Assembly: GCA_023663685.1 (NCBI GenBank)
Contig: JAMPHB010000002.1
Location: 128,709-161,172, forward strand
DNA from: Blautia sp.
GTDB taxonomy: Bacteria; Bacillota; Clostridia; Lachnospirales; Lachnospiraceae
Reading direction: 5' to 3'
Length of the DNA stretch: 32,464 bases
The notes under the pieces were generated by a model. It searched no databases. It worked only from the letters and a program-made list of their open reading frames with translations, and was not told the origin of the DNA. The first letter of the stretch is position 1, and every line of letters starts with the position of its first letter. Shown here one piece after another: positions 11,342 to 24,141 of the stretch. Both the position numbers and the translations under genes were made by a program.

Positions 11342-11575
11342 CCTTCGTTTCTTCCTTCATTATAATTATGGCTTATTCTACACCATTTTGTCTCAATTGT
11401 CCATATCTGCATGTACTGCTTTTTGTTTCCAAGGCTGGAGATATCTTCTTGTTACTTGTGTGTTACTTGTTTTGCGGTAAAAAAGTTCACAAAGTTATCT
11501 CACAATTTTTATTTTTCCAACGTCCGTGCCCGAATATATGCACCCTCCGACGGGCAGCGCTTTTGCCTATTATCT
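11342..11575. other. Intergenic spacer before the first silent cassette
   Basis: No gene is visible here. The left part contains the -10 of the minus-strand dehydratase gene. GTTACTTG repeats occur near 11450-11475 and recur in the conserved flank of the cassettes. From 11576 the sequence becomes about 91% identical to the stretch in front of the second cassette. Confidence 0.5.
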
Positions 11576-11775
11576 GCTGCTTATTTGTATCCTGTGTGTT
11601 ACTTGTCCCCCTGCCTTTCACGAAAAATCCTCCCTCCCGACCCGGGAAAACGCTGAAAATACGGGCTTTCCTGCGCCCTTTGCCCCGTGGAATATCTGTT
11701 CAAGGTAACTGCGAAGAAAAATAACAAGAGTGTAAGCAAGACCCTGACCCTGACTGCAAAGGTTGTGAACGCTTC
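11576..11775 (+). repeat. Silent flank and crossover block of cassette 1
   Basis: Positions 11576-11697 match 18796-18917 at about 91% with no gaps. This silent flank is absent from the expressed gene. Positions 11698-11775 (78 bp, one mismatch) match the expressed gene on the opposite strand at 23204-23281, and match cassette 2 from 18918. The left edge of homology with the expressed gene falls at exactly the same base (the G of GTTCAAGG) in both cassettes. Confidence 0.85.
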
Positions 11776-13930
11776 CCTGAAGGTTACCAACATGCCGGAG
11801 ACCATGATTGTCAACGATGAGGTAACTCTTACAAAGAGCGGCGCTCCTTCTGAGGCAACTGTTGACTATACAAGCGACAATACAGACGTTGTTGCAGTTG
11901 ACGGCAGCAAGATCACCGCAAAGGCAGCCGGTGAGGCAAACATCACCGCTACCAGCAGCTACGGCAAGACTGTAACCTACAAGGTAGCTGTCAAGAATGC
12001 AGAGCTTCAGGAAGTTAAGCAGACAAAGGCAAACACTATCGAGGCAACTGTTAAGGGAGATACCTCCAAGCTTACCAAGGCTGATTTTGCTATTGTAAAT
12101 ACAAAGACAAATGCTGTTGTTGCTGTAAATACGGTAGCAGCTGATGCGGGCAAGGTTACGATCACGACTTTCAACAACATGGCAGACGGAAATGTTTACT
12201 CCGTGACACTGGACGGTATATCCAAGGAGTTTACCGCCACAGACGGAACAGTCGTAGCTATTGAAATCGCCCCGACCACGGTTCCAAGCGGCAGGGCTAC
12301 CAAGATCACTGCCACTGCAAAGGATGCAAACGGAGTAGAAATTGATTCTATTGCATATGGTGCAGGCGTTTCCGGATATACCTTTACCATTACAACAGCA
12401 ACCGGCTACACCACCGGAGACAGCTTATATCTTCCGAATACTGGTGATACCGCGACAGCAAATGTGGTAAAGCACACCTACAAGTATGATACCACCGGCA
12501 AGGAGATTGGAACTATTGAGACCGGCGATGTGACCATCACCGCAATAGATCCTTCCGCAGCAAGTAACTTTAATGTTCGTTTAGCAGATGACAATACTAA
12601 GAAGTACGATGACTTAAAGGACGGCGCTCAGATTTCTGTTGGCGGCACTAAGTACGCAGTATTTAAGATTACAGACGCGAACGCTTCTGAGATTCCGGCT
12701 TCTGAGTATGCAAACTATACAGTAGAGAGCTCTGATGCTACCGTACTCCAGGTTGCAACCACTTCCCTTGCTGGATCTGGAGCTGGCAATGGTGTTGCAG
12801 TTTATGGCCTGAAGGAAGGCACAGCTTATATTCTTGTGAAGAATAACAATACGGTTGTTGCTTCCCTGCCGATTACGGTTATTGCAGCTGCAAAGGCGAC
12901 CACTCTGACACTCGACAAGAACAGCTTTGTGATTTCCAATGAAGCAGTTGGCGAGAAAGTGGAGGTCAACGCGACAGTAAAGGATCAGTTTGGAAACAAC
13001 TTTACAGTTGATAGTGATGTAGATGTTACATGCGAGGCATGTCCGGCGGCTACAACAAAGACAGCTGCCCAGACCATTGGAACAGGCATTGTAAAATCTG
13101 TGGCAAATGGAAAAATTACATTCCAGGGAGAAGACAAGGACGCGGGAACCTATGTATTTAAGGTTACTTATACAAAGAATGGAAATACCACAACTCCGGC
13201 CTATGTATCTGTAGAGGTAAAGGCTGCTACTGGTGCTGTAAATTATCAGCTTGTAATAGAAGACAATGGCGTTGCCACCAGTGGTAACTATGATACAAAG
13301 ATAACCGACAGCAACAATCAGGCTACGAAGGATTTTGACCTTGTCCTTTACAAGACCCAGGGCGGTGTGAAAAAGGATGAAGTAAATTCTGCTATTAAGG
13401 TGAATGGCGTATCTGTCAAGAAAGATGGAAAGGATTGCGCTCTGGTTACTACCGGTGCCGGAATCTACTTTGAGAACGGAATTGCAGGTGCTGATGAGCT
13501 GAAGGTTAGAGCCGTTGCTAATAGCGGTAATGTAATCACCAAGCTTGCTTCCGGCGAATATACCATCCTGGTAGATTATTTAGATGGCAGCAATACGGGT
13601 ACAGCAAGAGCAACCCTGAAGATTACCGACAGCCAGTCTGCACTGACAGTATCTCAGAAGAAGAACACAACTTCTGACAGCAGCATTACGGCTATGTTTG
13701 GTGACGCTGATTCGGATGCATTCTCTGCTTCCAATGCAGATGGAACTGTAGCTGTAACAGATGTAAAGGGTACATGTATTAAACAGAGTGTAACAAATGC
13801 CAGTCTGACGGGTGCTACCTTCGCATCTGGAGATGTTATCACGGTTACCGAGGTTACTGCAACAGTAACGATTGGAAGTGTAACTTATACAATGACCGCA
13901 AATGTTAATTTTGTTGTCACTGTACAGTAA
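11687..13930 (+). CDS. Silent Ig-domain surface-protein cassette 1 (no start, no signal peptide)
   Basis: The reading frame of about 745 residues begins in the conserved block FKVTAKKNNKSVSKTLTLTA and continues as bacterial Ig-like (BIG2-type) repeats. It shows DNA-level homology to the expressed gene at 21142-23580. It lacks a promoter, a ribosome site and a signal peptide: the first possible start, GTG 11687, has no Shine-Dalgarno. It is therefore a storage copy, not an independently expressed gene. Relative to the expressed gene it lies in the opposite orientation and in the matching frame, so inversion across the shared block would fuse it to the signal peptide. Its 3' half uses more AAT, GTA and TTA codons than the expressed copy and encodes several Cys (for example CEACPAA). 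A terminator shared with a convergent fragment follows. Confidence 0.8.
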   Translation: MEYLFKVTAKKNNKSVSKTLTLTAKVVNASLKVTNMPETMIVNDEVTLTKSGAPSEATVDYTSDNTDVVAVDGSKITAKAAGEANITATSSYGKTVTYKVAVKNAELQEVKQTKANTIEATVKGDTSKLTKADFAIVNTKTNAVVAVNTVAADAGKVTITTFNNMADGNVYSVTLDGISKEFTATDGTVVAIEIAPTTVPSGRATKITATAKDANGVEIDSIAYGAGVSGYTFTITTATGYTTGDSLYLPNTGDTATANVVKHTYKYDTTGKEIGTIETGDVTITAIDPSAASNFNVRLADDNTKKYDDLKDGAQISVGGTKYAVFKITDANASEIPASEYANYTVESSDATVLQVATTSLAGSGAGNGVAVYGLKEGTAYILVKNNNTVVASLPITVIAAAKATTLTLDKNSFVISNEAVGEKVEVNATVKDQFGNNFTVDSDVDVTCEACPAATTKTAAQTIGTGIVKSVANGKITFQGEDKDAGTYVFKVTYTKNGNTTTPAYVSVEVKAATGAVNYQLVIEDNGVATSGNYDTKITDSNNQATKDFDLVLYKTQGGVKKDEVNSAIKVNGVSVKKDGKDCALVTTGAGIYFENGIAGADELKVRAVANSGNVITKLASGEYTILVDYLDGSNTGTARATLKITDSQSALTVSQKKNTTSDSSITAMFGDADSDAFSASNADGTVAVTDVKGTCIKQSVTNASLTGATFASGDVITVTEVTATVTIGSVTYTMTANVNFVVTVQ

Positions 13931-13975
13931 TAACAGAATCTGTACTGGTTAGTAAAATAATCGGACTATGATACT

Positions 13976-14006
13976 GGAAAAGACGACCGTGATGGTCGTC
14001 TTTTCC
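13976..14006. terminator. Palindromic bidirectional terminator, locus 1
   Basis: GGAAAAGACGACC (13976-13988), loop GTGAT, and GGTCGTCTTTTCC (13994-14006), followed by TTTT. The same stem with the reverse-complement loop (ATCAC) lies at 21075-21101. The flanks also match in inverted orientation, so the two terminators are mirror copies. Confidence 0.85.
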
Positions 14007-14049
14007 TTTTACAAGATACAGATGTACTTATAGTATTTAATTAGCTGGC

Positions 14050-14460
14050 TTAGTAGGTATGGGTATTAGTGAATGTTCTATTTACATCAACTGCTACCCA
14101 GAAGTAATCGCCGTCATCAATCTGAACCTTTACATATGCCGTTTTTACATGTACATTATTCTTGGTAGTGGTCTTCTGCACATCGCCATCTTTAACAAAT
14201 ATTTCAGAAACACTATAGCTCTTGCTGTCTTGTCCTGGATAGCTGATCTTAAGGCACTCTGCAATTGCCGCTTTTGCTAAGTCCACTTTGTCTGTCAAAG
14301 CAGAGTTGAAATCACTCTTTATGACTTCTGTAATAACAGCCTTCGGTGTGGAATCCTTGATTTCAACATACTGCCTGAAAGTTTTTGCAGCAGAACCCTC
14401 TCCTCTGGTAACCTCAATCTGATAGGTTCCTGCGGAATAGTTCGGCATCCATGCAATATT
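14050..14460 (-). pseudogene. C-terminal fragment of a further Ig-domain cassette
   Basis: About 135 residues starting around AWMPNYSAGTYQIEV and ending FWVAVDVNRTFTNTHTY align with the last part of cassette 2 (AWMPKYSAGTYQIEA to FWVAVDVNRVFTKN). It is convergent with cassette 1 across the mirrored terminator, which is the same geometry as cassette 2 facing the expressed gene. The upstream part of the gene is gone: the frame continues upstream into unrelated coding sequence resembling a conjugation ATPase. This is a remnant, not a functional gene. Confidence 0.8.
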
Positions 14461-14574
14461 ATTGTCATCCGCATCCAGTTCCGTACACTTCGAGCCAAGA
14501 CGGTTGAAATGCCCGATAAGGTCAGCTCCGACACGGGCAAAATAATTCCTCGCTTCCTCGATGTTCTTCTTGCA
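14461..14574 (-). pseudogene. Fragment resembling a conjugative-element VirB4/TraE-type ATPase
   Basis: The stop-to-junction reading frame includes KNIEEARNYFARVGADLIGH and then FNRLGSKCTELDA. This resembles a segment near the N-terminal part of VirB4-like ATPases of Gram-positive integrative conjugative elements. It runs in frame into the Ig-domain fragment (junction about 14465-14485) and is cut at its other end by the terminator of the toxin-antitoxin module. The family call rests on pattern memory only. Confidence 0.45.
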
Positions 14575-14576
14575 TT

Positions 14577-14604
14577 AAAAAAAACGCCACTTGCATAAGT
14601 GACG
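14577..14604 (-). terminator. Intrinsic terminator of the type II toxin-antitoxin operon
   Basis: On the minus strand CGTCACTT, loop ATGC and AAGTGGCG (one wobble) are followed by eight T. It lies 25 nt past the toxin stop codon. Confidence 0.85.
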
Positions 14605-14628
14605 ATTCCTTTTCAAAATATTTTGTTG

Positions 14629-14946
14629 CTAATGGATGAGCCAACTGTAATCCTTACGGCAATCAAGGATATATTCCACATATACCGTACTGTCTTGGAT
14701 TTGGTAGAGGACTATATACCACTTTTCAATAAACATCTTATGATATTTATTGGGTGTGATATATATTTCATCAAAAAACGGAAAACGCTGCGGCATCTGG
14801 GATAACGAACGCATTGCGGTCATGATTTCTTTCTTTTTTGCCGCCGCTGCTTCTTTGTTGACCTGTGCCATAAATCGGATATGCGTTCCCAACATTCTTT
14901 TTGCCCTGTCGGAAACAATTACTTTATACTTTTTGTTTTCTGCCAT
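14629..14946 (-). CDS. ParE/RelE-family toxin
   Basis: This 105-residue basic protein fits the ParE/RelE fold: YKVIVSDRAKRMLGTHIRF at the N-terminus, a helical middle, MFIEKWYIVLYQI, and the C-terminal strand YVEYILDCRKDYSWL. Members either cleave mRNA at the ribosome or poison gyrase; which applies here cannot be read from sequence. The start codon lies 3 nt after the antitoxin stop, as is usual for antitoxin-first operons. The operon is flanked by conjugative-element fragments on the same strand. Confidence 0.85.
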   Translation of the reverse strand: MAENKKYKVIVSDRAKRMLGTHIRFMAQVNKEAAAAKKKEIMTAMRSLSQMPQRFPFFDEIYITPNKYHKMFIEKWYIVLYQIQDSTVYVEYILDCRKDYSWLIH

Positions 14947-14949
14947 ACG

Positions 14950-15216
14950 CTATACCTCTGCAATCACATCATCAAGATATGCATCCAGTTCATCAAGAGT
15001 ACAGCCATTCCTTCCTGCAATCCTGTCTTCCTCAACGGCAAGAAGCTCCTCACGCAGCTTCAGCATTTTTTCCCGTCTGTTATAAGTTTCAATATCCATC
15101 ACCACCAAATCCCCCTCGCCGTTCTTGGTAAGGAAAACTGGCTCTGCGGTCTTTCTGCACTGCTCGGCAATCTCATTGTAATTCTGTCTGATTGCTGCCG
15201 ATGGGCGAATATTCAT
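14950..15216 (-). CDS. Phd/YefM-family antitoxin
   Basis: This 88-residue partner of the ParE/RelE toxin has an N-terminal Phd/YefM DNA-binding part (NIRPSAAIRQNYNEIAEQC, then PVFLTKNGEGDLVVMDIETY) and an acidic C-terminal helix (LDELDAYLDDVIAEV) that should wrap the toxin. I chose the ATG at 15216 because AGGAGGTG lies just upstream. A longer reading would start inside the promoter-proximal leader without a ribosome site. Autorepression is expected for the family. Confidence 0.87.
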   Translation of the reverse strand: MNIRPSAAIRQNYNEIAEQCRKTAEPVFLTKNGEGDLVVMDIETYNRREKMLKLREELLAVEEDRIAGRNGCTLDELDAYLDDVIAEV

Positions 15217-15258
15217 ATCGACACCTCCTCGAATCAACAGTAGTAATATTCTACCCAT

Positions 15259-15287
15259 ATTATACCCGTTTCATGCAATGAAGTCAA
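15259..15287 (-). promoter_or_regulatory. Promoter of the type II toxin-antitoxin operon
   Basis: The minus-strand -35 TTGACT (15282-15287), 17-bp spacer and perfect -10 TATAAT (15259-15264) lie about 40 nt before the antitoxin ATG. Confidence 0.85.
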
Positions 15288-15310
15288 CATGAGCATGACA
15301 TTTCCTCCGC

Positions 15311-15514
15311 CTATCGCTCCATGCCAGGTTTTTTCTTGGGCGGTTTCTTCCGTGACGGGTAGGGGATAAATTCTTCCTCCCCCACAATGATGCTGAACTC
15401 TGACCGAAGTATCGGGTGTGTTTTCTGTTTCTGGTACTCTCGGATAAGCTCAACCGCACTTTCCCTCGCGGCTGTGCTTGCCTGCTGCACACCGTCCTTA
15501 AAAATATAAACATA
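15311..15514 (-). pseudogene. 5'-truncated gene fragment, probably from a conjugative element
   Basis: A 66-residue open frame has protein-like composition, including GVQQASTAARESAVELIREY and FSIIVGEEEFIPYPSRKKPP, and ends MER. It has no start codon. The frame opens at a TAA right beside the border of the small-toxin repeat (15526), so the 5' part was lost there. The Lys/Pro-rich end is like C-termini of accessory proteins in Firmicutes conjugative elements. I cannot name the family. Confidence 0.5.
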
Positions 15515-15525
15515 TTACAGATAGG

Positions 15526-15725
15526 GCAATCGTGTTGCAGGTGGGCCGGCCTCTCATTTTCTACAGAATGGGGGTGATGCCTGTGAAAAATCGTTTTGAT
15601 TTTAAGGATTTAATGACCTTTGGTCTTTTCCTTTTGGCATTGCTTACATTCGTTTTTACGTTTTGTAAGCAGCTGCTCCTTTTGTATTTTTACTATACCA
15701 TATCTGCATATGCTTTGCAAGAAGC
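15526..15725 (+). repeat. Small-toxin repeat, copy 1 (deleted form)
   Basis: This segment of about 200 bp is nearly identical to 18408-18697, except that copy 1 lacks about 90 bp after the codons for FTFCK, which hold the stop codon and the terminator hairpin. Copies are in direct orientation and flank the DUF1703-type gene and the Fst-like locus. Confidence 0.8.
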
Positions 15726-15732
15726 GGATTGA
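15583..15732 (+). CDS. Holin-like small toxin, damaged copy
   Basis: The GTG start (15583) follows the ribosome site GGGGGTGATG. The peptide opens KNRFDFKDLMTFGLFLLALL and then TFVFTFCK, a single membrane helix after a charged N-terminus, like the putative holin-like type I toxins of Firmicutes. In the intact copy (18466-18555) it stops after FTFCK. Here a deletion removed the stop and terminator, so the frame reads on for about 20 residues (QLLLLYFYYT...) through what was the promoter-proximal part of the antisense RNA. It is probably a decayed toxin gene. Confidence 0.55.
   Translation: MKNRFDFKDLMTFGLFLLALLTFVFTFCKQLLLLYFYYTISAYALQEAD
15692..15720 (-). promoter_or_regulatory. Retained antisense promoter in the damaged toxin copy
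   Basis: On the minus strand TTGCAA (15715-15720), a 17-bp spacer and TATAGT (15692-15697) are identical to the antitoxin promoter of copy 2. With the terminator lost, its transcript would run straight across the whole toxin coding region. Confidence 0.65.
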
Positions 15733-15788
15733 TTTTCCGCTTGTGTCAATGTCTAACCAAAAACGGAACCATCTGACGCTGCACTCGA

Positions 15789-15816
15789 TTGCAAAAATTC
15801 AGATTTATGGTAAAAT
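15789..15816 (+). promoter_or_regulatory. Promoter of the DUF1703-type gene
   Basis: TTGCAA (15789-15794), a 16-bp spacer and TAAAAT (15811-15816) lie about 55 nt before the ATG. Confidence 0.5.
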
Positions 15817-15869
15817 ATGCGTAGAACATTGCTTGTAAAATCAGGGAAAAGGAATATGGGAGAAGAAAC

Positions 15870-17573
15870 ATGCCACTGAAAACGTCCATCGGAAAACAGA
15901 GTTTTGCGCGTGTCATTGAGGAGCAGTGTTTTTATGTGGATAAGACGCATTTCATAAAGGAATGGTGGGAATACGGAGATGACGTGACACTGATCACCCG
16001 CCCCCGCCGTTTCGGAAAAACACTGAACATGAGTATGCTGGAGGCCTTCTTTTCCCTTGAGTATGCTGGCAGGAATGATCTTTTTGAGGGACTGTCCATA
16101 TGGGAGGACGCGGAATACCAAAAGCTGCAGGGGACTTACCCTGTGATTGCGCTCTCCTTTGCGGAAATCAAGGAGACTACCTATACTGGTATGTTAAAGC
16201 AGTTTTGGAGAATCATACGGAATCTGTACCGCAAATATGATTTTATTCCAGAAGACAATGCTGTGTCCCTGCTGCGCAAAAAAGAGGAGGTGTGTGCAGG
16301 GACGGCGGAGGAATTTATTCCCCGTCCGGTCGATCTGTCCGGGGCGCTCCATGACCTCTCACTATATATGGAAGAGTATTACGGGAAAAAGGTGATTATC
16401 CTGCTGGACGAGTACGACACTCCCATGCAGGAAGCCTATGTGTCCGGTTACTGGAACGAAATGATAGATTTTATGCGCGGACTGTTTAACTCCACCTTCA
16501 AGACCAATCCGGCGCTCTACAGGGCTGTTATGACCGGAATCACGAGGGTGAGCAGGGAATCCATTTTTTCCGACCTGAATAATCTGGAGGTGGTCACGAC
16601 TACCTCTGCAAAATATGCCGCCGCCTTTGGTTTTACGGAAAAGGAGGTGTTTGACGCGCTGGACATGCAGGGGCTTTCCGATAGAAAAGAGGACGTCAGA
16701 CGCTGGTATGACGGCTTCACCTTCGGGAATGTCCCGGATATCTACAATCCGTGGTCGATTATCAACTACCTGCAGAAATCCGCCTTTTCCCCCTACTGGG
16801 CCAATACCAGCGCCAACAGTCTGGCAGGCACGCTGATCCGCGAGGGGAACCCGGAGGTCAAGATGGCGATGGAAAACCTGCTGTCCGGCGGGACGCTGGT
16901 GGCAGAGCTTGACGAGCAGACCGTGTTTGAACAGTTAAGGAATGACAGGAACGCCATCTGGAGCCTGCTCCTTGCAGAAGGATATCTGACAATCGTAAAT
17001 CTTGAGCAGGATTCGTGGGGAGAGTGGCACTATGAGCTAAAGCTGACAAACCATGAGGTGCAGATCATGTTTTCCAAAATGATTTCCGGGTGGTTCCAGT
17101 CCGGGGCAGGCGGTTATAACCAGTTTCTCCGGGCGCTTCTGGATGGGAATCTGGAGGAAATGAACGCCTATATGAATCAGGTGGCGTTTAGCACGTTTTC
17201 CTATTTTGATACCGGAAGCGGATCCTCCGGTTTCGGGGAGCCGGAACGCTTCTACCACGGCTTTGTGCTCGGACTGATGGTGGAGCTGCGCACTTCCTAC
17301 CGGATCACGTCGAACCGGGAGAGCGGCTTCGGGCGCTATGATATCCTGCTGGAGCCGCTGGAAAAAGACAGGGACGCCATCATTATTGAATTTAAGGTAT
17401 TCAATCCGAAGAAGGAAAGCACCCTTGGGGACACGGTTGAAGCCGCACTCTGTCAGATCAGGGAAAAGAAATATGGCGCAGGGCTTACCGCAAAGGGGAT
17501 AGCGCCGGAACGGATCCGCTGTTATGGCTTTGCTTTTCAGGGAAAGAGTGTACTGATTGGATTTTGTAATTAA
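15870..17573 (+). CDS. AAA-ATPase-like / PD-(D/E)XK nuclease protein (DUF1703 type)
   Basis: This 567-residue protein has a P-loop-like ATPase half and a C-terminal nuclease-like half. The N-terminus (FYVDKTHFIKEW, then TLITRPRRFGKTLNMSMLEA, with the P-loop around 45-51) and Walker B VIILLDEYD (about 175-183) are typical of the AAA-ATPase-like family abundant in gut Firmicutes and Bacteroidetes. The C-terminus holds GRYDILLEP with Asp491 and IIIEFKV with Glu507/Lys509, the PD-(D/E)XK signature. Copies of this family are often numerous and strain-variable; their biological role is not established. It has its own promoter and the ribosome site GGGAG. It lies among toxin-antitoxin modules and element fragments, so recent arrival by transfer is likely. 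Confidence 0.85.
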   Translation: MPLKTSIGKQSFARVIEEQCFYVDKTHFIKEWWEYGDDVTLITRPRRFGKTLNMSMLEAFFSLEYAGRNDLFEGLSIWEDAEYQKLQGTYPVIALSFAEIKETTYTGMLKQFWRIIRNLYRKYDFIPEDNAVSLLRKKEEVCAGTAEEFIPRPVDLSGALHDLSLYMEEYYGKKVIILLDEYDTPMQEAYVSGYWNEMIDFMRGLFNSTFKTNPALYRAVMTGITRVSRESIFSDLNNLEVVTTTSAKYAAAFGFTEKEVFDALDMQGLSDRKEDVRRWYDGFTFGNVPDIYNPWSIINYLQKSAFSPYWANTSANSLAGTLIREGNPEVKMAMENLLSGGTLVAELDEQTVFEQLRNDRNAIWSLLLAEGYLTIVNLEQDSWGEWHYELKLTNHEVQIMFSKMISGWFQSGAGGYNQFLRALLDGNLEEMNAYMNQVAFSTFSYFDTGSGSSGFGEPERFYHGFVLGLMVELRTSYRITSNRESGFGRYDILLEPLEKDRDAIIIEFKVFNPKKESTLGDTVEAALCQIREKKYGAGLTAKGIAPERIRCYGFAFQGKSVLIGFCN

Positions 17574-17592
17574 AATTTGCATATGTTATAAT
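17564..17592 (+). promoter_or_regulatory. Strong extended -10 promoter at the end of the DUF1703-type gene
   Basis: TTGTAA (17564-17569), a 17-bp spacer and TGTTATAAT (17584-17592) overlap the stop codon of the preceding gene. A terminator lies about 360 bp downstream. Confidence 0.6.
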
Positions 17593-17599
17593 TCCATTA

Positions 17600-17955
17600 G
17601 ACAAAAAGTAATGATAAGTTTCTGGAAATCAGTGCAGAAATGGTGAAGTTTGCACAGAAAATCATTAGATATGACAGTAGTGGAAAAGGCAGTGTATTAT
17701 AAAAATTCTGCTAAAGAGGCAGAAAGAGAGTGTGTACGATATTCTTTACGCTTCTACGGATATCTGCACCGTGTCCATTTCAACGCAAAAATCAAAAGGC
17801 TGGGAAAGAACTGCAAAAACTTCTTGAACCATGGCACCGGATATGCTATATTAGAAATAGAAAAGGGAAAGCCATAGAAGCGGCTACCTCTCAACAACAC
17901 AAAACTGTTACTTAAGAACAGCCGCCATTATTGTGAGTAATGGCGGCAATTTCTT
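17600..17955 (+). other. Promoter-to-terminator unit without a convincing gene
   Basis: Between the extended -10 promoter and the hairpin at 17921-17947 there is room for a transcript of about 350 nt. The longest open frame (17650-17877, 75 codons) lacks a good ribosome site and has no recognisable motif. Other frames are broken by stops. It may be a non-coding RNA or the remains of a decayed gene. From 17956 to about 18060 I see nothing. Confidence 0.35.
17921..17953 (+). terminator. Intrinsic terminator
   Basis: GCCGCCATTA (17921-17930), a 7-nt loop and TAATGGCGGC (17938-17947) form a perfect 10-bp stem followed by AATTTCTTTTT. Confidence 0.8.
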
Positions 17956-18060
17956 TTTCCCTTGTTTATCTGATAAATCAAATTAACAAGGGCAACAATA
18001 ATACTCCAGTCTGAATTAAATATGAAACCACAATCCTAAAAACAAACCGCTGAAAAAAAG

Positions 18061-18090
18061 GTGCAAGAATATCGAAGAGTATGTTATAAT
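18061..18090 (+). promoter_or_regulatory. Promoter of the Fst-like toxin
   Basis: The extended -10 TGTTATAAT (18082-18090) has a weak -35 GTGCAA (18061-18066) 18 bp away. The toxin ATG is 46 nt downstream. Confidence 0.6.
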
Positions 18091-18135
18091 CAATGTGTTG
18101 CTCACCGAAACCCGCAACAGGGAGGAGGTGTTCAC

Positions 18136-18234
18136 ATGGAGTTACTTGCATCCTTTTTAATTGCCGTTACGGCTGGTGTGGCTTGCCACTACATCATCAA
18201 ATGGTTAGACGGCAACGATAAGAGCAACAAATAA
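18136..18234 (+). CDS. 32-residue membrane peptide, candidate type I toxin (Fst/par-like)
   Basis: The peptide begins MELLASFLIAVTAGVACHYI and ends IKWLDGNDKSNK: one hydrophobic helix followed by a charged tail. This layout matches Fst-family toxins. GGAGGAGGTG (18121-18130) is an excellent ribosome site. The locus has the organisation of the enterococcal par system: toxin mRNA and a convergent antisense RNA share a bidirectional terminator, and a 13-bp direct repeat (TTGCATCCTTTTT) occurs inside the toxin gene (18146-18158) and near the 5' end of the antisense gene (18331-18343). The sequence itself is not close to Fst of pAD1. Membrane damage is the expected toxic action. Confidence 0.7.
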   Translation: MELLASFLIAVTAGVACHYIIKWLDGNDKSNK

Positions 18235-18261
18235 CCTAGTGGGTGCTTTGCCACTATAAAA

Positions 18262-18347
18262 GAAAAGAAGAATCTCCAGACTGTGCTGGAACACAGTCCG
18301 GGGATTTCATTCTTTGTTCGCATGGAACTTTTGCATCCTTTTTGCCT
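18262..18347 (-). ncRNA. Putative antitoxin RNA of the Fst-like locus
   Basis: It is driven on the minus strand by TTGAAA (18377-18382), a 17-bp spacer and an extended -10 TGCTATAAT (18354-18362), which is close to ideal. The RNA would start near 18347, carry the complement of the TTGCATCCTTTTT repeat at its 5' end and terminate at the shared hairpin. It can pair with the toxin mRNA both at the terminator and at the repeat in the toxin coding region. The ends are estimated. Confidence 0.65.
18266..18316. terminator. Bidirectional terminator of the Fst-like locus
   Basis: AAGAATCTCC(A)GACTGTG (18268-18285), a 6-nt loop and CACAGTC(C)GGGGATT with a short ATTCTTT extension (18292-18315) form a long stem with minor bulges. 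T-rich tails lie on both strands. Confidence 0.7.
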
Positions 18348-18353
18348 AATGGC

Positions 18354-18382
18354 ATTATAGCATATGCAAATTTTAATTTCAA
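18354..18382 (-). promoter_or_regulatory. Antisense promoter of the Fst-like locus
   Basis: TTGAAA (18377-18382), a 17-bp spacer and TATAAT (18354-18359) with an upstream TGC extension. It is the best-scoring promoter by eye in this region, as expected for an antitoxin RNA made in excess. Confidence 0.75.
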
Positions 18383-18465
18383 GATACATTTTGAACGAAA
18401 AAACGGAGCAATCGTGTTGCAGGGTGGGCTGACCTCTCATTTTTTACAGAATGGGGGTGATGCCT

Positions 18466-18555
18466 ATGAAAAATCGTTTTGATTTTAAGGATCTAATGAC
18501 CTTTGGTCTTTTCCTTTTGGCATTGCTTACATTCGTCTTTACGTTCTGTAAGTAG
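18466..18555 (+). CDS. 29-residue holin-like type I toxin
   Basis: The peptide begins MKNRFDFKDLMTFGLFLLAL and ends LTFVFTFCK: a charged N-terminus and one membrane helix. It resembles the putative holin-like toxins of Firmicutes type I systems (Hol_Tox type). GGGGGTGA (18453-18460) lies 5 nt before the chosen ATG; in-frame ATGs at 18451 and 18460 lie within the ribosome site and are less likely. A convergent antisense promoter and a shared terminator lie just downstream. Confidence 0.7.
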   Translation: MKNRFDFKDLMTFGLFLLALLTFVFTFCK

Positions 18556-18559
18556 CCAT

Positions 18560-18657
18560 ACATAGAAAAACCACCCCAAAACTTTGACTGAGTGCGGGGT
18601 AGTTTTTCTATTCATTTACTTGGTCAACCCACCTTGTGGGCGGTTGCTCCTTTTTGT
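18560..18657 (-). ncRNA. Putative antitoxin RNA of the holin-like locus
   Basis: The minus-strand promoter at 18664-18692 would give an RNA of about 100 nt starting near 18657 and ending at the hairpin 18564-18609. It overlaps the 3' end of the toxin mRNA. Its 5' end (GGAGCAACCGCCCAC) can fold with GTGGGTTG. The ends are estimated. Confidence 0.6.
18564..18609. terminator. Bidirectional terminator of the holin-like locus
   Basis: AGAAAAACCACCCC (18564-18577) and GGGGTAGTTTTTCT (18596-18609) pair over 14 bp with one mismatch. T-runs close the stem on both strands. Confidence 0.8.
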
Positions 18658-18663
18658 ATTTTT

Positions 18664-18692
18664 ACTATACCATATCTGCATATGCTTTGCAA
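18664..18692 (-). promoter_or_regulatory. Antisense promoter of the holin-like locus
   Basis: TTGCAA (18687-18692), a 17-bp spacer and TATAGT (18664-18669) on the minus strand, conserved exactly in copy 1 (15692-15720). Confidence 0.75.
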
Positions 18693-18795
18693 GAAGCAAA
18701 TTTACGCTTTCCCGGCTATAAATTTATGCCCCTTCCCCGCCCCGCTTTTCCCTGATTCCCACAGATACGCAGACATGGATTTTTGTTACTTGCCC

Positions 18796-19004
18796 GCTGC
18801 TTATGCGTATATTGTGTGTTACTTGTCCCCCTGCCTTTCACCCAAAATCCTCCCTCCCGACCCTGGAAAATGCTGAAAATACGGGCTTTCCTGAGCCCTC
18901 CGCCCCGTGGAATATCTGTTCAAGGTAACTGCGAAGAAAAATAACAAGAGTGTAAGCAAGACCCTGACACTGACTGCAAAGGTTGTGAACGCTTCTGTCA
19001 AGGC
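18796..19004 (+). repeat. Silent flank and crossover block of cassette 2
   Basis: Positions 18796-18917 are the silent flank shared with cassette 1. Positions 18918-19004 are 87 bp identical to the expressed gene on the opposite strand (23195-23281). High similarity (over 90% by eye) continues to about 19200. Confidence 0.88.
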
Positions 19005-21027
19005 AGACGTGCCGGAGACCATGGTAGTAAACGAGGAGAAGACCCTCACAAAGAGCGGCGCTCCGACCGAGGCTACTGTTACTTACACAAGCGACAAGGC
19101 TGACATCGTTGCTGTTGACGGCAACAAGCTCACCGCAAAGAAGGCCGGAGAGGCAAACATCACTGTGACCAGCAGCTACGGCGCGACCAAGACCTACAAG
19201 GTTGCCGTTAAGCAGGCTGTGCTCCAGAGCGTAAGCCAGAAGAAGGCGGCTGAACTTGAGTTCATCTTTGCCGGTGACACCAAGGACATCAAGACATCTG
19301 ATATCGTAATCACCAACACCTCCACAAAGGTTGTTTTCCCGGTGGCAAGCGTATCTCCTGACAAGAAGGAGCCCACAAAGGTAACCGTGAAGACCTTGTC
19401 CGGAATGACCGACGGCCAGACCTACACCGTTGTTTTTGACGGTGTGACCAAGGAGTTTGTTGCAACCGAGAAGGATGTTGCTGACGTGGCAGTCACTCCG
19501 CTTCAGATTGACGCTGATATGAACGGTACAGAGATCATTGGCCAGACCCTGAGCAAGACCGGCGTTGTCCTTTCAGAGAGCAAGCTACAGAGCGGCGGGG
19601 ATTCCAATGTAGAGTTTACCGTTACCACAACCGACGGCTGGCAGTCAGGCAACAAGCTGGTTCTTCCGAAGGCTGGGGGCAAGGCGACCGCAAAGATCAC
19701 CTACCATACCTACAAGTATGAGAACGGCAGCGAGGTTGGCGCTATCACAAAGAGCTTTGAGATTGTGGCGGCAGACCCGACAGCGGCGACTGTATCCGGC
19801 TTTGCCTACACCATTACGGACAAGGCGCCGACAGACTGGAGCAAGGTAACACCGAACACCCAGATCCCGGCAGGCGGCTCAAACAAGGTATTCTTCCACT
19901 TTACGGATTCCAACGACAAGGACGTAACCGGCGATTATACAGTGGAGTCTGCGGACAGCACCATTTTCCTGCTTGGAAATGAGGTTATTACCAGCGGCGT
20001 GTCTATCGTTGCAATCAAGGAAGGTACCGCATATGTTACAGTAAAGAAGAATGGCACATTTATTACCTCCCTTCCGGTTACTGTGACGGCTTCCACAAAA
20101 CTTGCCAAGATTGAACTCAGTGCAGGAAGCCTCACCGTATCCAAGGATGCTGTTGGGTACAAAACAGTAGAGACCACTGTAAAAGCGAAAGACCAGTATA
20201 ATAATGATTTCTCTATCAATACCGGCAACGTAACGATTGACCGTATCGGAAGTAGCGGAACAGCTCCTGCTGTTGCTCCTGCAAACGATGGCAACAAGGT
20301 AAAACTCACATTTGATGCGGCATTGGCAACAAAAGGCACCTATACCTACAGGGTAACTGTAAAGTCCGGTGACCAGACACAGGCAGCTACTGTCAGTGTC
20401 ACGGTTGTAGAGACGAGCCAGAGCGTAAGCACTGCAACGGACGTCAGAATCGTTGTTGAGGGTGATACGGACATGGCTATCGGCGATTCCGATAACGGTG
20501 AAAAGAAGATGACCGTGAAGCTTGGCGCATACCAGAACGGTGCATTACTCGGATATGTGGATATCACCACGCTGAAATTCAACAACACTGTCATTGCGAC
20601 CACAAACGGAGCGATTGCCCTGACCGAAAATACCAACGGTGCATGGATGCCGAAGTATTCCGCAGGAACCTACCAGATTGAGGCTACCGGAACGGTGAAC
20701 AGCAGTGCCAGAACTTACAGAACCTACGTCGCAATCAAGGATTCCACACAGAAGGCCAGCGTTACCAAGGTTCTGAATGACGCGAAGTTCTCAGGTGCTG
20801 GTGACAATAAGGCTTTAGCCGTGGCTGCAGTCGAAAGTTGCCTGGAGATCAGCTATCTTGGACAGAACAAGCCTCTGGCTGGAAACATAATGATTAAGAA
20901 TGACGGTGATGTAAAGGTAGCGGGTAACAGCGTATATGTTGGAACCGCATATGTGAAGATCACCAACGAAAAGGGTGTAAGCTTCTGGGTAGCAGTTGAT
21001 GTAAACAGGGTATTCACCAAGAACTAA
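18907..21027 (+). CDS. Silent Ig-domain surface-protein cassette 2 (no start, no signal peptide)
   Basis: The open frame of about 700 residues starts in the shared block FKVTAKKNNKSVSKTLTLTA and is made of Ig-like repeats, ending FWVAVDVNRVFTKN. No promoter, ribosome site or signal peptide precedes it; GTG 18907 is only the first start-like codon. Its first 290 bp are nearly identical to the expressed gene and then the two diverge steadily, leaving very different protein bodies. Its C-terminal part matches the fragment at 14050-14460 rather than the expressed gene. It faces the expressed gene across the terminator at 21075-21101. Inversion of 18918-23281 would attach it in frame to the promoter and signal peptide. 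Codon use is strongly biased to AAG, ACC and GGC, as in the expressed gene, which suggests it has been expressed recently. Confidence 0.85.
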   Translation: MEYLFKVTAKKNNKSVSKTLTLTAKVVNASVKADVPETMVVNEEKTLTKSGAPTEATVTYTSDKADIVAVDGNKLTAKKAGEANITVTSSYGATKTYKVAVKQAVLQSVSQKKAAELEFIFAGDTKDIKTSDIVITNTSTKVVFPVASVSPDKKEPTKVTVKTLSGMTDGQTYTVVFDGVTKEFVATEKDVADVAVTPLQIDADMNGTEIIGQTLSKTGVVLSESKLQSGGDSNVEFTVTTTDGWQSGNKLVLPKAGGKATAKITYHTYKYENGSEVGAITKSFEIVAADPTAATVSGFAYTITDKAPTDWSKVTPNTQIPAGGSNKVFFHFTDSNDKDVTGDYTVESADSTIFLLGNEVITSGVSIVAIKEGTAYVTVKKNGTFITSLPVTVTASTKLAKIELSAGSLTVSKDAVGYKTVETTVKAKDQYNNDFSINTGNVTIDRIGSSGTAPAVAPANDGNKVKLTFDAALATKGTYTYRVTVKSGDQTQAATVSVTVVETSQSVSTATDVRIVVEGDTDMAIGDSDNGEKKMTVKLGAYQNGALLGYVDITTLKFNNTVIATTNGAIALTENTNGAWMPKYSAGTYQIEATGTVNSSARTYRTYVAIKDSTQKASVTKVLNDAKFSGAGDNKALAVAAVESCLEISYLGQNKPLAGNIMIKNDGDVKVAGNSVYVGTAYVKITNEKGVSFWVAVDVNRVFTKN

Positions 21028-21074
21028 TCCGCGCAACATCATATACGGCAGATGCATCTGTATCCTGCAAAAGA

Positions 21075-21101
21075 AAAAGACGACCATCACGGTCGTCTTT
21101 T
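21075..21101. terminator. Palindromic bidirectional terminator, locus 2
   Basis: AAAAGACGACC (21075-21085), loop ATCAC and GGTCGTCTTTT (21091-21101). It serves whichever body is expressed. It is the mirror image of the terminator at 13976-14006. Confidence 0.88.
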
Positions 21102-21141
21102 CTTGTATTTCAGAAATGCTAAATGGAATTCATATGAAACA

Positions 21142-23580
21142 TTATCTGGTGAAGGTTGTATTGATAGTTACCGGAACTACATAGGATACATTACCGTTTG
21201 TAACAACCACCTTTACAGTTCCGACATAAACAGCGTTTCCAGCAACCTTTGCGCCGCCAGCGTCGTCTACATCAATCTGGTAATCACCCGTATCCTTATA
21301 CTCCTTGTCACCATAAGAAATTACTACACACTCTTTCAGAATAGCCTCAACCTGATCAGCCGTTGCGCCGATAGTCTGGGTAGTAACCTTCTTGTTAATC
21401 TTTGCAGCTGCAGAAGCCTGCGTATCCTTTACAGTGAAGCTTCCGGAGAAGGTCTTGCCGTTCGCTGTAGCCTTTACAGTATAGGTCTTGCCTGCCTCAA
21501 GGTTCTTAACAGCCACTGCGCTGCCACTGGTAACAGAAACTGCGTTGATTGTCAGCTCACCACCAGCCACATCTGCATAATCCAGAGATCCGGTTGCTGT
21601 TCCGTTCACCTCATATGTGGCACTGCCTACAACACCAACCTGTGCGCCCTTATCATAAGCGACTACCTTTGCGGTAACAGTCTTTCCTGCATTGCCGGTA
21701 GTTGCGTCATCAGCGATGGCCATATCTACTTCATTGGAAGAAAGAACCAGTCTCAGATCCGTAGCATTTGCTGTAGTCTTTTCAGTTGCAACAACGTTTA
21801 CAGACAAGGTACGGGTAACCTTTGCGCCGTTCTTTTCCACTTCAAACTTAAGGACATAGGTTCCTGCTGTCTTGCTTTGCGCATCAACAGTTACATTCTT
21901 AACGTCAGCGGTATTTACTGTCAGATCAGCAGCACCGTTCGGCTTGGTCAGGGAAGTAACAGTTGTCGTAAAGCCTGACATTTCCTCCCCGTACTGGTCA
22001 ACCGCCTTGACTGTTACAGTCTGGGGAAGACTTACAGCGTTGGAAAGTGTAAGGGAAGATACACCAAGTGTCACATTGGTCAGCTTTCTCTCAGCGGTAA
22101 TCACTACCGGAAGGGATGTAACGATCTTTCCATCCTTCTTTACATTGACGTATGCGCTTCCTGCCTTAACTGCTGCAACAGAAATCGCTGTAATCTTGTC
22201 AGTCAGATTCTGCTCCGGAAGAACCAGAACGCTGTCATCGCTGGAAACTACGGAATACTGGCTTGTCACATCCGACTTGTTGGAGTCTGTAAAGAAGAAG
22301 TACGCATTTACAGAATCACTTACGGAGAAGGAGTTCTTAAGGGTATCCTTATCCCAGTTCGGAGCGCTTCCTGCGAAGGTATACTTGAATCCGTCAACGG
22401 TTGCCGGAACAGCCTCAACTGCGGTAATCTCTACCTTCTTGTTGAGTGCGCCGATTTCCTTTGCCTGGTCGTCATACTTGAAGGTATGGTAGGTAACCTC
22501 TGCCGTACCCTTGTTTCCAACGGTCGGGAGAACGAGCTTGTTGCCGTCCACATATCCCTGCGTGGTGGTAAGGCTGAAATCAATCTCTGTGATGCTCGCT
22601 GCATCTGATACGGTGAACTCCTTAAGGATGATACCATTCTTGTCAACGGTCTGACCCTTAATCTCTGTTCCCTCTGTGTTTGCTGCAATCTGGAGCGGTG
22701 CTACATTTAACTCTGCAACCACACCGTCGGTTGCGGTGAACTCTGCTGCTGCGCCGTTATCTACGGATACGGTATACTTTGCACCGTCATTCATGTCACC
22801 AAATGTCTCGATGGTAACCTTTGTTGCGTCTGTTCCGTCAACATTTACTGCCTTAACAGCGAATACGTTGTTGTTTGCGGTGTTTGTAATCTTTACATCT
22901 GCCGGCTTAAGATCCTTGGTCGCACCAAGAATGACAGCCTCGATGGTGTTTGCTTTGGTCTGCTTTACAGACTGGAGCGCATACTTGCCAACGGTAACCT
23001 TATATGTCTTGGTTGCACCGTAGCTGCTGGTCACAGTGATGTTTGCCTCACCGGCTGCCTTTGCGGTGATCTTGTTGCCGTCAACAGCAACGATGTCAGC
23101 CTTGTCGCTTGTGTACTCAACAGTAGCCTCGGTCGGAGCGCCGCTCTTTGTGAGGGTCTTCTCCTCGTTCACTACCATGGTCTCCGGCACATCCGCCTTG
23201 ACAGAAGCGTTCACAACCTTTGCAGTCAGTGTCAGGGTCTTGCTTACACTCTTGTTATTTTTCTTCGCAGTTACCTTGAACTTAACTTTTGTTGTACCCT
23301 TCTTAACAGCGGTAATCTTAATAGTCTTTCCAGAAGCCTTTACAGTGGCGATACCGCCCGGGCTGTTCTTTCCAACCTTTGTTACCTTAACGCTCTTCCA
23401 ATTGGAAGGAGTTGTTACCTTAACAGTCTTTGTCTGGTTCCGTGTAGTACCATGAGCGACAGTAACTGTTGACTTGGATAACTTTGCGGTCGAAGCTGCC
23501 TCAGCGGTAGTAGCAGGAACTGCTGTTACAACCATTGCTAAAGCAAGACCTAAAGCTAACACTTTTTTCATTGCTTTCAT
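21142..23580 (-). CDS. S-layer-like secreted Ig-domain protein (expressed copy)
   Basis: This is an 812-residue secreted surface protein. I chose the ATG at 23580 because AGAGG lies 7 nt upstream. The protein begins MKAMKKVLALGLALAMVVTA and has a classical signal peptide ending TAEAA (cleavage near 28-29). Residues to 99 are a basic, Lys/Thr/Val-rich constant domain. From residue 100 on (FKVTAKKNNKS...) the sequence is shared with the silent cassettes: BIG2-type Ig repeats, alanine, threonine and valine rich, with almost no Cys. There is no LPXTG motif, no SLH repeats and no lipobox, so attachment probably depends on the constant N-terminal domain (inference). A strong promoter, a leader of about 465 nt and highly biased codons (AAG, AAC, GTT, ACC) point to very high expression, as for S-layer proteins. 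It ends ...INTTFTR before the shared terminator. Confidence 0.85.
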   Translation of the reverse strand: MKAMKKVLALGLALAMVVTAVPATTAEAASTAKLSKSTVTVAHGTTRNQTKTVKVTTPSNWKSVKVTKVGKNSPGGIATVKASGKTIKITAVKKGTTKVKFKVTAKKNNKSVSKTLTLTAKVVNASVKADVPETMVVNEEKTLTKSGAPTEATVEYTSDKADIVAVDGNKITAKAAGEANITVTSSYGATKTYKVTVGKYALQSVKQTKANTIEAVILGATKDLKPADVKITNTANNNVFAVKAVNVDGTDATKVTIETFGDMNDGAKYTVSVDNGAAAEFTATDGVVAELNVAPLQIAANTEGTEIKGQTVDKNGIILKEFTVSDAASITEIDFSLTTTQGYVDGNKLVLPTVGNKGTAEVTYHTFKYDDQAKEIGALNKKVEITAVEAVPATVDGFKYTFAGSAPNWDKDTLKNSFSVSDSVNAYFFFTDSNKSDVTSQYSVVSSDDSVLVLPEQNLTDKITAISVAAVKAGSAYVNVKKDGKIVTSLPVVITAERKLTNVTLGVSSLTLSNAVSLPQTVTVKAVDQYGEEMSGFTTTVTSLTKPNGAADLTVNTADVKNVTVDAQSKTAGTYVLKFEVEKNGAKVTRTLSVNVVATEKTTANATDLRLVLSSNEVDMAIADDATTGNAGKTVTAKVVAYDKGAQVGVVGSATYEVNGTATGSLDYADVAGGELTINAVSVTSGSAVAVKNLEAGKTYTVKATANGKTFSGSFTVKDTQASAAAKINKKVTTQTIGATADQVEAILKECVVISYGDKEYKDTGDYQIDVDDAGGAKVAGNAVYVGTVKVVVTNGNVSYVVPVTINTTFTR
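23195..23281 (-). repeat. Crossover block in the expressed surface-protein gene
   Basis: These 87 bp are identical in inverted orientation to 18918-19004; 78 of them match 11698-11775 with one mismatch. The homology stops abruptly at 23281, where the constant region begins, and at the same base in both cassettes. Confidence 0.88.
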
Positions 23581-24046
23581 GTCTTTTCCTCTCTTTCCTT
23601 TTCGGCTAGTCCCCATCAACCACTACTCGTTCAACCTTACACGTTCCGTTCCCCTGCTCTCTGGTCTGAAATTGCTGCGGACAACTCTTTCCTTCGGGCT
23701 GGTTCCTGACTGCCGCCGCCGGGTTCCTCTGGCTCTTGTCGTATGTATGTACACATGACGCGTCACACGCTTTCGCATATGACAGATACCAACCGGCTTT
23801 GTCTACAGACACATAATCAAAATTGATTCGAAGCTTCGATCACCCTTCGCCGTGTAGAGTTGTGAAATCGACGTCGAATGTTCAGCACCAAAATCAACAA
23901 GCTTAAGACTCGAATAGATCTCAGCTTCTGTCGTGCCTGTAATTGTAAGATCCTCCGGAATCTATCTTTTCAATCCCGGTATCCATAGCACTGTGGTTAC
24001 TATCCTTCGTACTTTAATTTAGCAGTACTAGTTTAACTACTCTACG
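23581..24046 (-). promoter_or_regulatory. Long 5' leader of the surface-protein gene
   Basis: About 465 nt separate the predicted start of transcription from the ATG. No gene is visible inside. The leader holds perfect palindromes of 10-12 bp: TGACGCGTCA near 23756-23765, TCGAAGCTTCGA near 23828-23839 and TCGACGTCGA near 23868-23877. Long structured leaders that stabilise the mRNA are known for S-layer genes; a regulatory RNA role is possible. Confidence 0.55.
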
Positions 24047-24052
24047 CAACCT

Positions 24053-24081
24053 ATCATACACCAAGTGTTTTTGCTTTGCAA
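24053..24081 (-). promoter_or_regulatory. Strong promoter of the surface-protein gene
   Basis: On the minus strand TTGCAA (24076-24081), a 17-bp spacer and TATGAT (24053-24058). Upstream is a very A/T-rich tract with a 16-bp palindrome of seven T, GC and seven A (24095-24110), which could act as an UP element. Confidence 0.7.
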
Positions 24082-24141
24082 TAGCAAAATCGCATTTTTT
24101 TGCAAAAAAATTTTAATATTTTATGAAGCTATTAAGACAAT

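Follow-up and report, generated by a model that had tools for sequence, protein, structure and literature searches.

A surface-protein locus of Blautia with silent bodies, shared core sites and a linked tyrosine integrase: a likely inversion switch

Organization of the surface-protein locus

The locus described here encodes an Ig-like protein of Blautia sp. and lies in a stretch of 32,464 nucleotides (nt) (contig JAMPHB010000002.1, positions 128,709 to 161,172), which as a whole is called the window. We found one gene for this protein on the minus strand, in what we term the expression slot, and two silent bodies without a signal peptide on the plus strand, in silent slots 1 and 2. An initial annotation of the sequence had given this layout, with a common block in inverted orientation, and its coordinates were confirmed to the base. 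The features are listed below (aa, amino acids; G075 is a close relative of the window's own genome, G000).

23619-21142, minus strand: expressed Ig-like protein gene, open frame of 825 aa
23282..23619, minus strand: constant 5' part of the expressed gene, 112 codons counted from TTG
21142..23281, minus strand: body currently in the expression slot, delimited by open frames and repeats
11687-13930, plus strand: silent frame 1, open frame of 747 aa
11698..13930, plus strand: silent body 1, without signal peptide, open throughout
18907-21027, plus strand: silent frame 2, open frame of 706 aa
18918..21027, plus strand: silent body 2, whose ortholog in G075 stands behind the slot-1 flank
14050..14455, minus strand: 3' remnant of a fourth body, facing silent body 1, delimited by open frames and repeat pairs I7-I9
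11698..18917, plus strand: 7.2-kb segment flanked by two directly repeated cores, without counterpart at the matching place in G075
24053..24081, minus strand: weak promoter-like match about 470 nt upstream of the gene start

The block common to the expressed gene and the two silent bodies begins at positions 23281, 18918 and 11698. It forms inverted repeats of 330 nt (18918-19247/22952-23281, 91% identity) and 86 nt (11698-11783/23196-23281, 95%), and the silent copies are linked to each other by a direct repeat of 223 nt (11561-11783/18781-19003, 90%), which comprises the block together with a 137-nt leader stretch common to both (11561-11697 and 18781-18917). Over the 60 nt upstream of the core site described below, the silent copies are only 18-20% identical to the expressed one; over the 40 nt from the core onward, they are 100% identical to it. 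Farther into the bodies, nucleotide identity falls to 44-70%, and the silent bodies are paralogs of the expressed gene with protein identities of 39 and 47%. When 18918-23281 or 11698-23281 was inverted in silico, the frame was kept and complete fusion genes of 815 and 856 aa were obtained (native 825), as the initial annotation had predicted; both keep the native N-terminus, with the constant 5' part at 23282..23619 unmoved.

The promoter and the signal peptide attributed to the expressed gene are less firm. The promoter candidate (TTGCAA-17-TATGAT, 24081-24053(-)) agrees with 9/12 consensus positions, and as the region 11300-24200 contains 28 promoter-type matches against a shuffle mean of 17.6, it is weakly supported. 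The signal peptide was recognised by eye, and ATG at 23580 is a likelier start than TTG. As for the S-layer-like identity proposed earlier, no S-layer or SLH model of Pfam or NCBIfam was matched at E 0.01 by the three window proteins, and such an identity is a guess. Big_2 (Ig-like) matches were found in three silent bodies from other species; together with the signal peptide, they suggest that the product would be displayed at the cell surface. A second, unlinked surface-protein homolog of 865 aa is encoded at G000:C30:4209-6470, and genes that score like it are present in G005, G009, G010, G018, G027, G033, G075 and G077.

The candidate core recombination site

The shared block begins at a short candidate recombination site, present once in each slot:

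23266..23289, minus strand: expression-slot core site AAAGTTAA-GTTCAAG-GTAACTGCG (left arm, 7-nt core, right arm)
11690..11716, plus strand: silent-slot core site 1, GAATATCT-GTTCAAG-GTAACTGCGAAG
18910..18936, plus strand: silent-slot core site 2, identical in sequence to site 1

Within a set of 62 genomes of the genus, silent copies were located in fetched loci by a core pattern that tolerates core variants; this is not a census, and copies with other cores are missed. In this way, 12 silent copies were obtained from seven genomes (three each from G077 and G009, two from G000, and one each from G075, G027, G079 and G018). All 12 diverge from the expressed copy of their own genome at the core, with identities of 0.18-0.38 before it and 0.95-1.00 after it (for copy G009b, the comparison is based on just 16 nt before the core). 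The core itself reads GTTCAAG in G000 and G075, GGCCAAG in G009 and GGTTAAG in the other four genomes; that is, it varies among species and is constant across all copies found within each genome. Such constancy would be required by a tyrosine recombinase whose overlap is 7 nt, and would also be left behind by any recurrent exchange between copies.

The two slot types differ on the left side of the core. Expressed slots carry GTTA[AC] in 7/7 cases (AGTTA[AC] in 6/7), and silent slots AT[AT]TC[CT] in 11 of 12, copy G077b being the exception. The right arm is GTAACT (GTATCT in all four G077 copies) and forms with the expressed-slot left side an imperfect inverted repeat around the 7 nt. In G079 the expressed and silent copies face each other on one contig, as in the window, with cores at 10152+ and 14512- and a silent body open over 687 codons. 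The arrangement is shufflon-like: inverted copies of a short site with a constant core lie between constant and variable coding parts. In G077 (L060:1331-1457), a leader copy ends at the core boundary and is followed by other DNA; by eye, this is perhaps an empty silent slot.

The linked integrase and its distribution

A gene for a tyrosine integrase was found at G000:C22:127286-128338. The window starts at C22:128709, so the gene lies 370 bp outside it on the left, at a distance of about 12 kb from silent slot 1. Neither this gene nor the 137-nt leader figured in the initial annotation. The enzyme carries a Phage_integrase domain (PF00589, E 2.3e-19), which is found in all 12 members of alignment A3. 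Residues R210, K235, H299, R302, H325 and Y336 are invariant in 12/12 aligned sequences, comprising nine of the ten genus orthologs (G033 left out) and the integrases of G229, G099 and G350; we take them to be the catalytic set of tyrosine recombinases. Residues 1-72 precede the parts that match core-binding (73-158) and catalytic (174-349) structures.

Orthologs at least 73% identical occur in 10/62 genus genomes (G000, G005, G009, G010, G018, G025, G027, G033, G075 and G077). They form one clade (support 100/100) beside the integrases of G229 and G099, which are 67 and 65% identical to the window-genome enzyme. With the expressed protein as query, 12/62 genomes gave a match at E 1e-3, and all ten integrase genomes fall within these 12, eight of them clearly. 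Of the two weak cases, G025 has a protein match at E 7.6e-4 and, at a contig end, DNA that matches the expressed-gene leader as far as the start codon; for G033, the score of the better match (28% identical) points instead to the second, unlinked homolog. The surface-protein genomes outside the integrase set are G074, whose core deviates (GGTTACA), and G079.

From the integrase end to the silent core there are 112, 189 and 1180 nt in G027, G077 and G018. The G027 integrase (PF00589, E 1e-16) stands between a silent cassette and an O-antigen-ligase-like gene. Elsewhere, integrase neighbours match genes of the window region: a histidine kinase in G005, G009, G010 and G033, and in G025 a gene matching a 1423-aa gene of G000.

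More distant relatives of the integrase have a different setting. All ten examined (G229, G099, G350, G102, G120, G212, G035, G017, G073 and G084) lie within about 1 kb of an rpsI end or partial copy, the neighbouring gene being presumably rpsI as judged from its C-terminal sequence, and HTH_3 was detected in 3/3 upstream genes scanned at such rpsI-inserted integrases. Among phage records, the best integrase match is 61% identical (MT836114), with Butyrivibrio phages at 35%; the best plasmid match is 36%. Viral contigs contained one integrase relative (59%), and none of their 46 pattern matches was a relative of the surface protein. With phage relatives of up to 61% identity, a mobile origin of the integrase is plausible. 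A likeness of the silent core to the rpsI site, considered by eye, was dropped as too weak to claim.

Phased repeats in the silent leaders

The two silent cores of the window are preceded by non-coding leaders:

11446..11697, plus strand: leader of silent slot 1, with GTTACTTG at 11451, 11462 and 11598 (left limit chosen by us)
18781..18917, plus strand: leader of silent slot 2, with an 11-bp ladder from 18785 scoring 23/28

The word GTTACTTG occurs seven times in the window against 0.77 expected (0/100 shuffles reach this number), and five of the seven lie in the two leaders. The GTTACTT repeats stand in an 11-bp register, and the ladder of slot 2 is the sole one in the window with a score of at least 20. 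Such a ladder was found in 11/11 silent leaders tested (0-2/300 shuffles reach the score) and in 0/8 expression slots (64-286/300). Its steps fall exactly at -133, -122, -111 and -100 in four of the 11 leaders, and start between -120 and -123 in four more; the last repeat of the best ladder lies 87-100 nt upstream of the core in 8/11. The best ladders of slot 1, G075 and G077c are farther out (last repeat at -236, -237 and -169), and the slot 1 and G075 leaders have an extra single repeat at -100 and -101. A twelfth leader (G009b), truncated by a contig end, was traced on another contig and has repeats at -101 and -90.

The same ladder is present beside rpsI-inserted integrases. In G229 and G099, which are outside the genus, it scores 19 and 20 of 21 (0/300 shuffles) and stands downstream of the integrase and before rpsI, with the last repeat 119 and 98 nt from the rpsI site. 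In still more distant relatives, the word GTTGCAT stands in the 11-bp register (21, 20 and 16 of 21 in G350, G035 and G017). The silent-only ladder resembles the GTTACTT repeats beside the rpsI-inserted integrases, and the silent leader therefore looks like the arm-bearing half of a mobile element's attachment site. Arm-type repeats near a core are a feature of heterobivalent (lambda-Int-like) integrases, and here they are seen at the level of sequence.

Across the genus, the arm pair GTYACTTN4GTTACTT was found in 8/10 integrase genomes and 4/52 others, at 20 places compared with two for a reversed control pattern. The arm pair of G005 precedes a regulator-like gene. Arm pairs also stand before an O-antigen-ligase-like gene in G010 (L133:4465-4482) and G009 (L134:668-685), and upstream of the G027 integrase, between it and the O-antigen-ligase-like gene (G027:C20:6497-6514); those by this gene perhaps mark a place where an integrase once stood. 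Further arm pairs occur in G016 and G014. Of three arm pairs in G074, two had no integrase or body match in the surrounding stretch (L136).

Selection and exchange since the split from G075

Two loci of G075 (L020 and L021) are 92-94% identical to the window. Nonsynonymous (dN) and synonymous (dS) divergence and their ratio, omega, were estimated by simple counting for this one genome pair. Silent body 2 has dS 0.174, dN 0.0186 and omega 0.107, with no stop codons, and is thus under purifying selection; such preservation would hardly be expected of a body never produced. The expressed gene gave omega of 0.163 in its C part and 0.167 in its N part, including the constant region, and the integrase 0.076.

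Within the first 150 nt of the block, the G075 copies are identical to each other and differ from the G000 copies at shared positions. Beyond it, orthologs are alike (mostly at least 90%) and paralogs are not. Homogenisation of the repeats has thus occurred in G075 and, as regards slot 2 and the expressed copy, in G000 as well, which implies that exchange continued after the two lineages split.

In G075, the slot-1 flank is joined to body 2, and the 7.2 kb between the direct sites are absent. The junction is not placeable to the base: the last 120 nt of the G075 leader are 75-92% like slot 1 and 72-80% like slot 2, slots 1 and 2 themselves being 88-92% alike there. This deletion-like junction is compatible with a site-specific event and with recombination between the 223-nt repeats alike. 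The G075 assembly has a break inside the expressed gene (55-nt overlap, N gap), and this place was not used as evidence on inversion.

Proposed mechanism and alternatives

Taken together, we consider it likely that a domesticated integrase swaps the surface-protein bodies by inversion, and that homologous recombination or gene conversion contributes too. The earlier suggestion of one expressed gene with silent bodies that can be flipped in has thus gained a linked and conserved recombinase, a conserved core, homogenised repeats and purifying selection in its favour.

The expression slot would provide the promoter, the signal peptide and the constant N-terminus, and the silent slots would store alternative bodies behind a non-coding leader. 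The integrase would recombine two 7-nt cores, one in a silent slot and one in the expression slot; because the slots are inverted, the intervening DNA would be inverted and the bodies exchanged in frame. Left arms and leaders would remain with the slot and right arms would move with the body, so that the sites would be remade and the switch would be reversible. Two silent slots of the same direction could also lose or regain the segment between them.

Several observations weigh against this reading. Homogenisation extends from about 90 to at least 250 nt beyond the core, and a cut confined to the core would not produce such tracts, so that homologous recombination or gene conversion also has a share in the exchange. 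The comparison with relatives, proposed in the initial annotation, cuts both ways: the G075 cassette is free of stop codons, but G075, the sole near relative, has the same body in the same orientation in its expression slot, and the inverted state was seen in no assembly compared. The integrase adjoins a silent slot in just three of ten genomes, as far as contigs reach, and its N-terminal domain was matched by no Pfam model. In the loci read for four of the ten integrase genomes (G005, G010, G025 and G033) no silent copy was found, nor in G033 a clear copy of the expressed gene. Conversely, G079 (genome 82% complete) has a silent copy, and only a 36-residue C-terminal integrase relic, preceding an arm pair, was found in it. 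Its silent-expressed repeat (90 nt) is no more decayed than that of the integrase-bearing G018, and this comparison does not separate an integrase from a homologous mechanism. The ladder motif was picked from the same leaders in which it was tested, which makes that test partly circular; the check on rpsI elements alone is independent. Finally, some arm pairs of integrase genomes lie away from cassettes (one each in G005, G009 and G010), the G077b boundary is off by one extra base, and the right arm is unconserved in G010.

The first alternative is that switching takes place by homologous recombination between the 86-330 nt repeats, dependent on RecA, and that the nearby integrase has another function. 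The repeats are long enough, the homogenised tracts reach past the core, the 223-nt repeat could equally yield the G075 junction, and similar repeats are retained in G079, in which only an integrase relic was found. Campylobacter fetus sap switching, which uses a movable promoter, is RecA-dependent as well. We nevertheless hold this explanation to be unlikely, as it leaves unexplained the ladder restricted to silent leaders and its match beside rpsI-inserted integrases, and likewise the identical boundary in seven genomes and the co-occurrence with the integrase.

It is also quite improbable that the switch was once active and is now frozen in this strain. An intact integrase under strong constraint, an open and selected silent body 2 and the homogenisation of repeats since the split from G075 all speak against freezing, which would otherwise fit the identical body expressed in G000 and G075, the mere remnant faced by slot 1 and the possibility of integrase loss suggested by G079. 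The idea that the silent bodies are ordinary duplicated fragments, their repeats reflecting recent duplication only, accords with their paralogy to the expressed gene but was rejected as highly implausible on account of the selection on body 2, of the distance between bodies whose first 50-150 nt are near identical, and of the shared boundary, which recurs in other species.

Returning to the integrase-driven exchange, its evolutionary source may be sought in the integrases of rpsI-inserting elements, to which the enzyme is kin, the silent leader corresponding to the arm-bearing half of their attachment site. We lean, by a narrow preference, towards a view in which an antigen switch arose by capture of a mobile element's full-length, arm-binding integrase: the arm-bearing attachment half would have become each silent leader, with the arm-less core inside the expressed coding region, the pairing of arm-bearing with arm-less sites would steer exchange from silent to expressed slots, and toxin-antitoxin genes may hold the array together.

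Such a system would explain how gut commensals of this group vary a secreted protein, and would show how antigenic variation can arise from the integrase and attachment site of a mobile element. It also names a likely enzyme and an exact site, which makes switching measurable in existing long reads, and G079 may be a natural case of integrase loss.

Genes between and beside the cassettes

A ParE toxin/Phd antitoxin pair (window 14629-15258) lies inside the 7.2-kb segment that could be deleted between the two direct sites, and HipA-like genes adjoin a silent cassette of G077 (L060:4321-5904). Toxin-antitoxin genes are said to stabilise integron arrays, and these genes possibly do the same here. 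A gene of the AAA-ATPase_like/PDDEXK_9 family stands between the cassettes of the window (15870-17573) and between those of G009 (L063:5005-6816); by eye, the family is also found near the G077 cassettes (L060:8339-10057) and beside the G079 integrase relic (L135). PF09820 was matched four times in the window's own genome, once weakly. A duplicated stretch (window 15540-15730 and 18423-18702) encodes a short hydrophobic peptide, MKNRFDFKDLMTFGLFLLALLTFVFTFCK, which by eye resembles a toxin or holin.

Comparison with known systems

In titles and abstract openings of open-licence papers, no such locus is described for Lachnospiraceae. The rpsI-inserted integrases of G229 and G099, which belong to the same bacterial family, share the GTTACTT ladder but are located next to rpsI, and the flanks read there gave no match to the window's surface proteins.

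The slpA/slpB system of Lactobacillus acidophilus, in which an expressed and a silent gene interchange by inversion of the slp segment (PMC6015585, PMC7858073), had been put forward as a parallel. It holds as regards the inversion-type switch, but the locus has two silent bodies, a linked integrase, an attachment-arm-like leader and a product whose S-layer identity is unsupported, and a tyrosine-recombinase shufflon with a variable left arm, a 7-nt core and a conserved right arm is closer. Surface-protein variation by inversion is also described for Campylobacter fetus sap (PMC11852207); for the present locus, a site-specific recombinase and a fixed promoter are better supported. In Clostridioides difficile, the tyrosine recombinase RecV acts on the surface-protein gene cwpV from a distance, but this is an on/off switch whose inverted region contains no part of the cwpV reading frame (PMC2784873).

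The shufflon of a bifidobacterial phage uses the tyrosine invertase Rin to exchange variable C-termini on a constant N-terminus. According to its published description (PMC6109161), Rin has a XerD-like architecture, without the arm-binding domain that canonical integrases carry at the N-terminus. The enzyme described here, in contrast, has about 72 extra N-terminal residues (without a Pfam match), and arm-like repeats are found at the silent sites only. The nearest likeness is with the R64-type shufflon (Rci, sfx sites), which shares the tyrosine recombinase, the alternative C-terminal parts on a constant N-terminus and the site architecture of variable left arm, 7-nt core and conserved right arm (PMC11852207). 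Yet in our locus whole bodies of about 700-750 residues are involved, there are two kinds of left half-site, phased arm-like repeats accompany the silent sites, and G075 shows what looks like a deletion between direct sites. The locus is thus most likely a variant of DNA-inversion switching of a surface protein.

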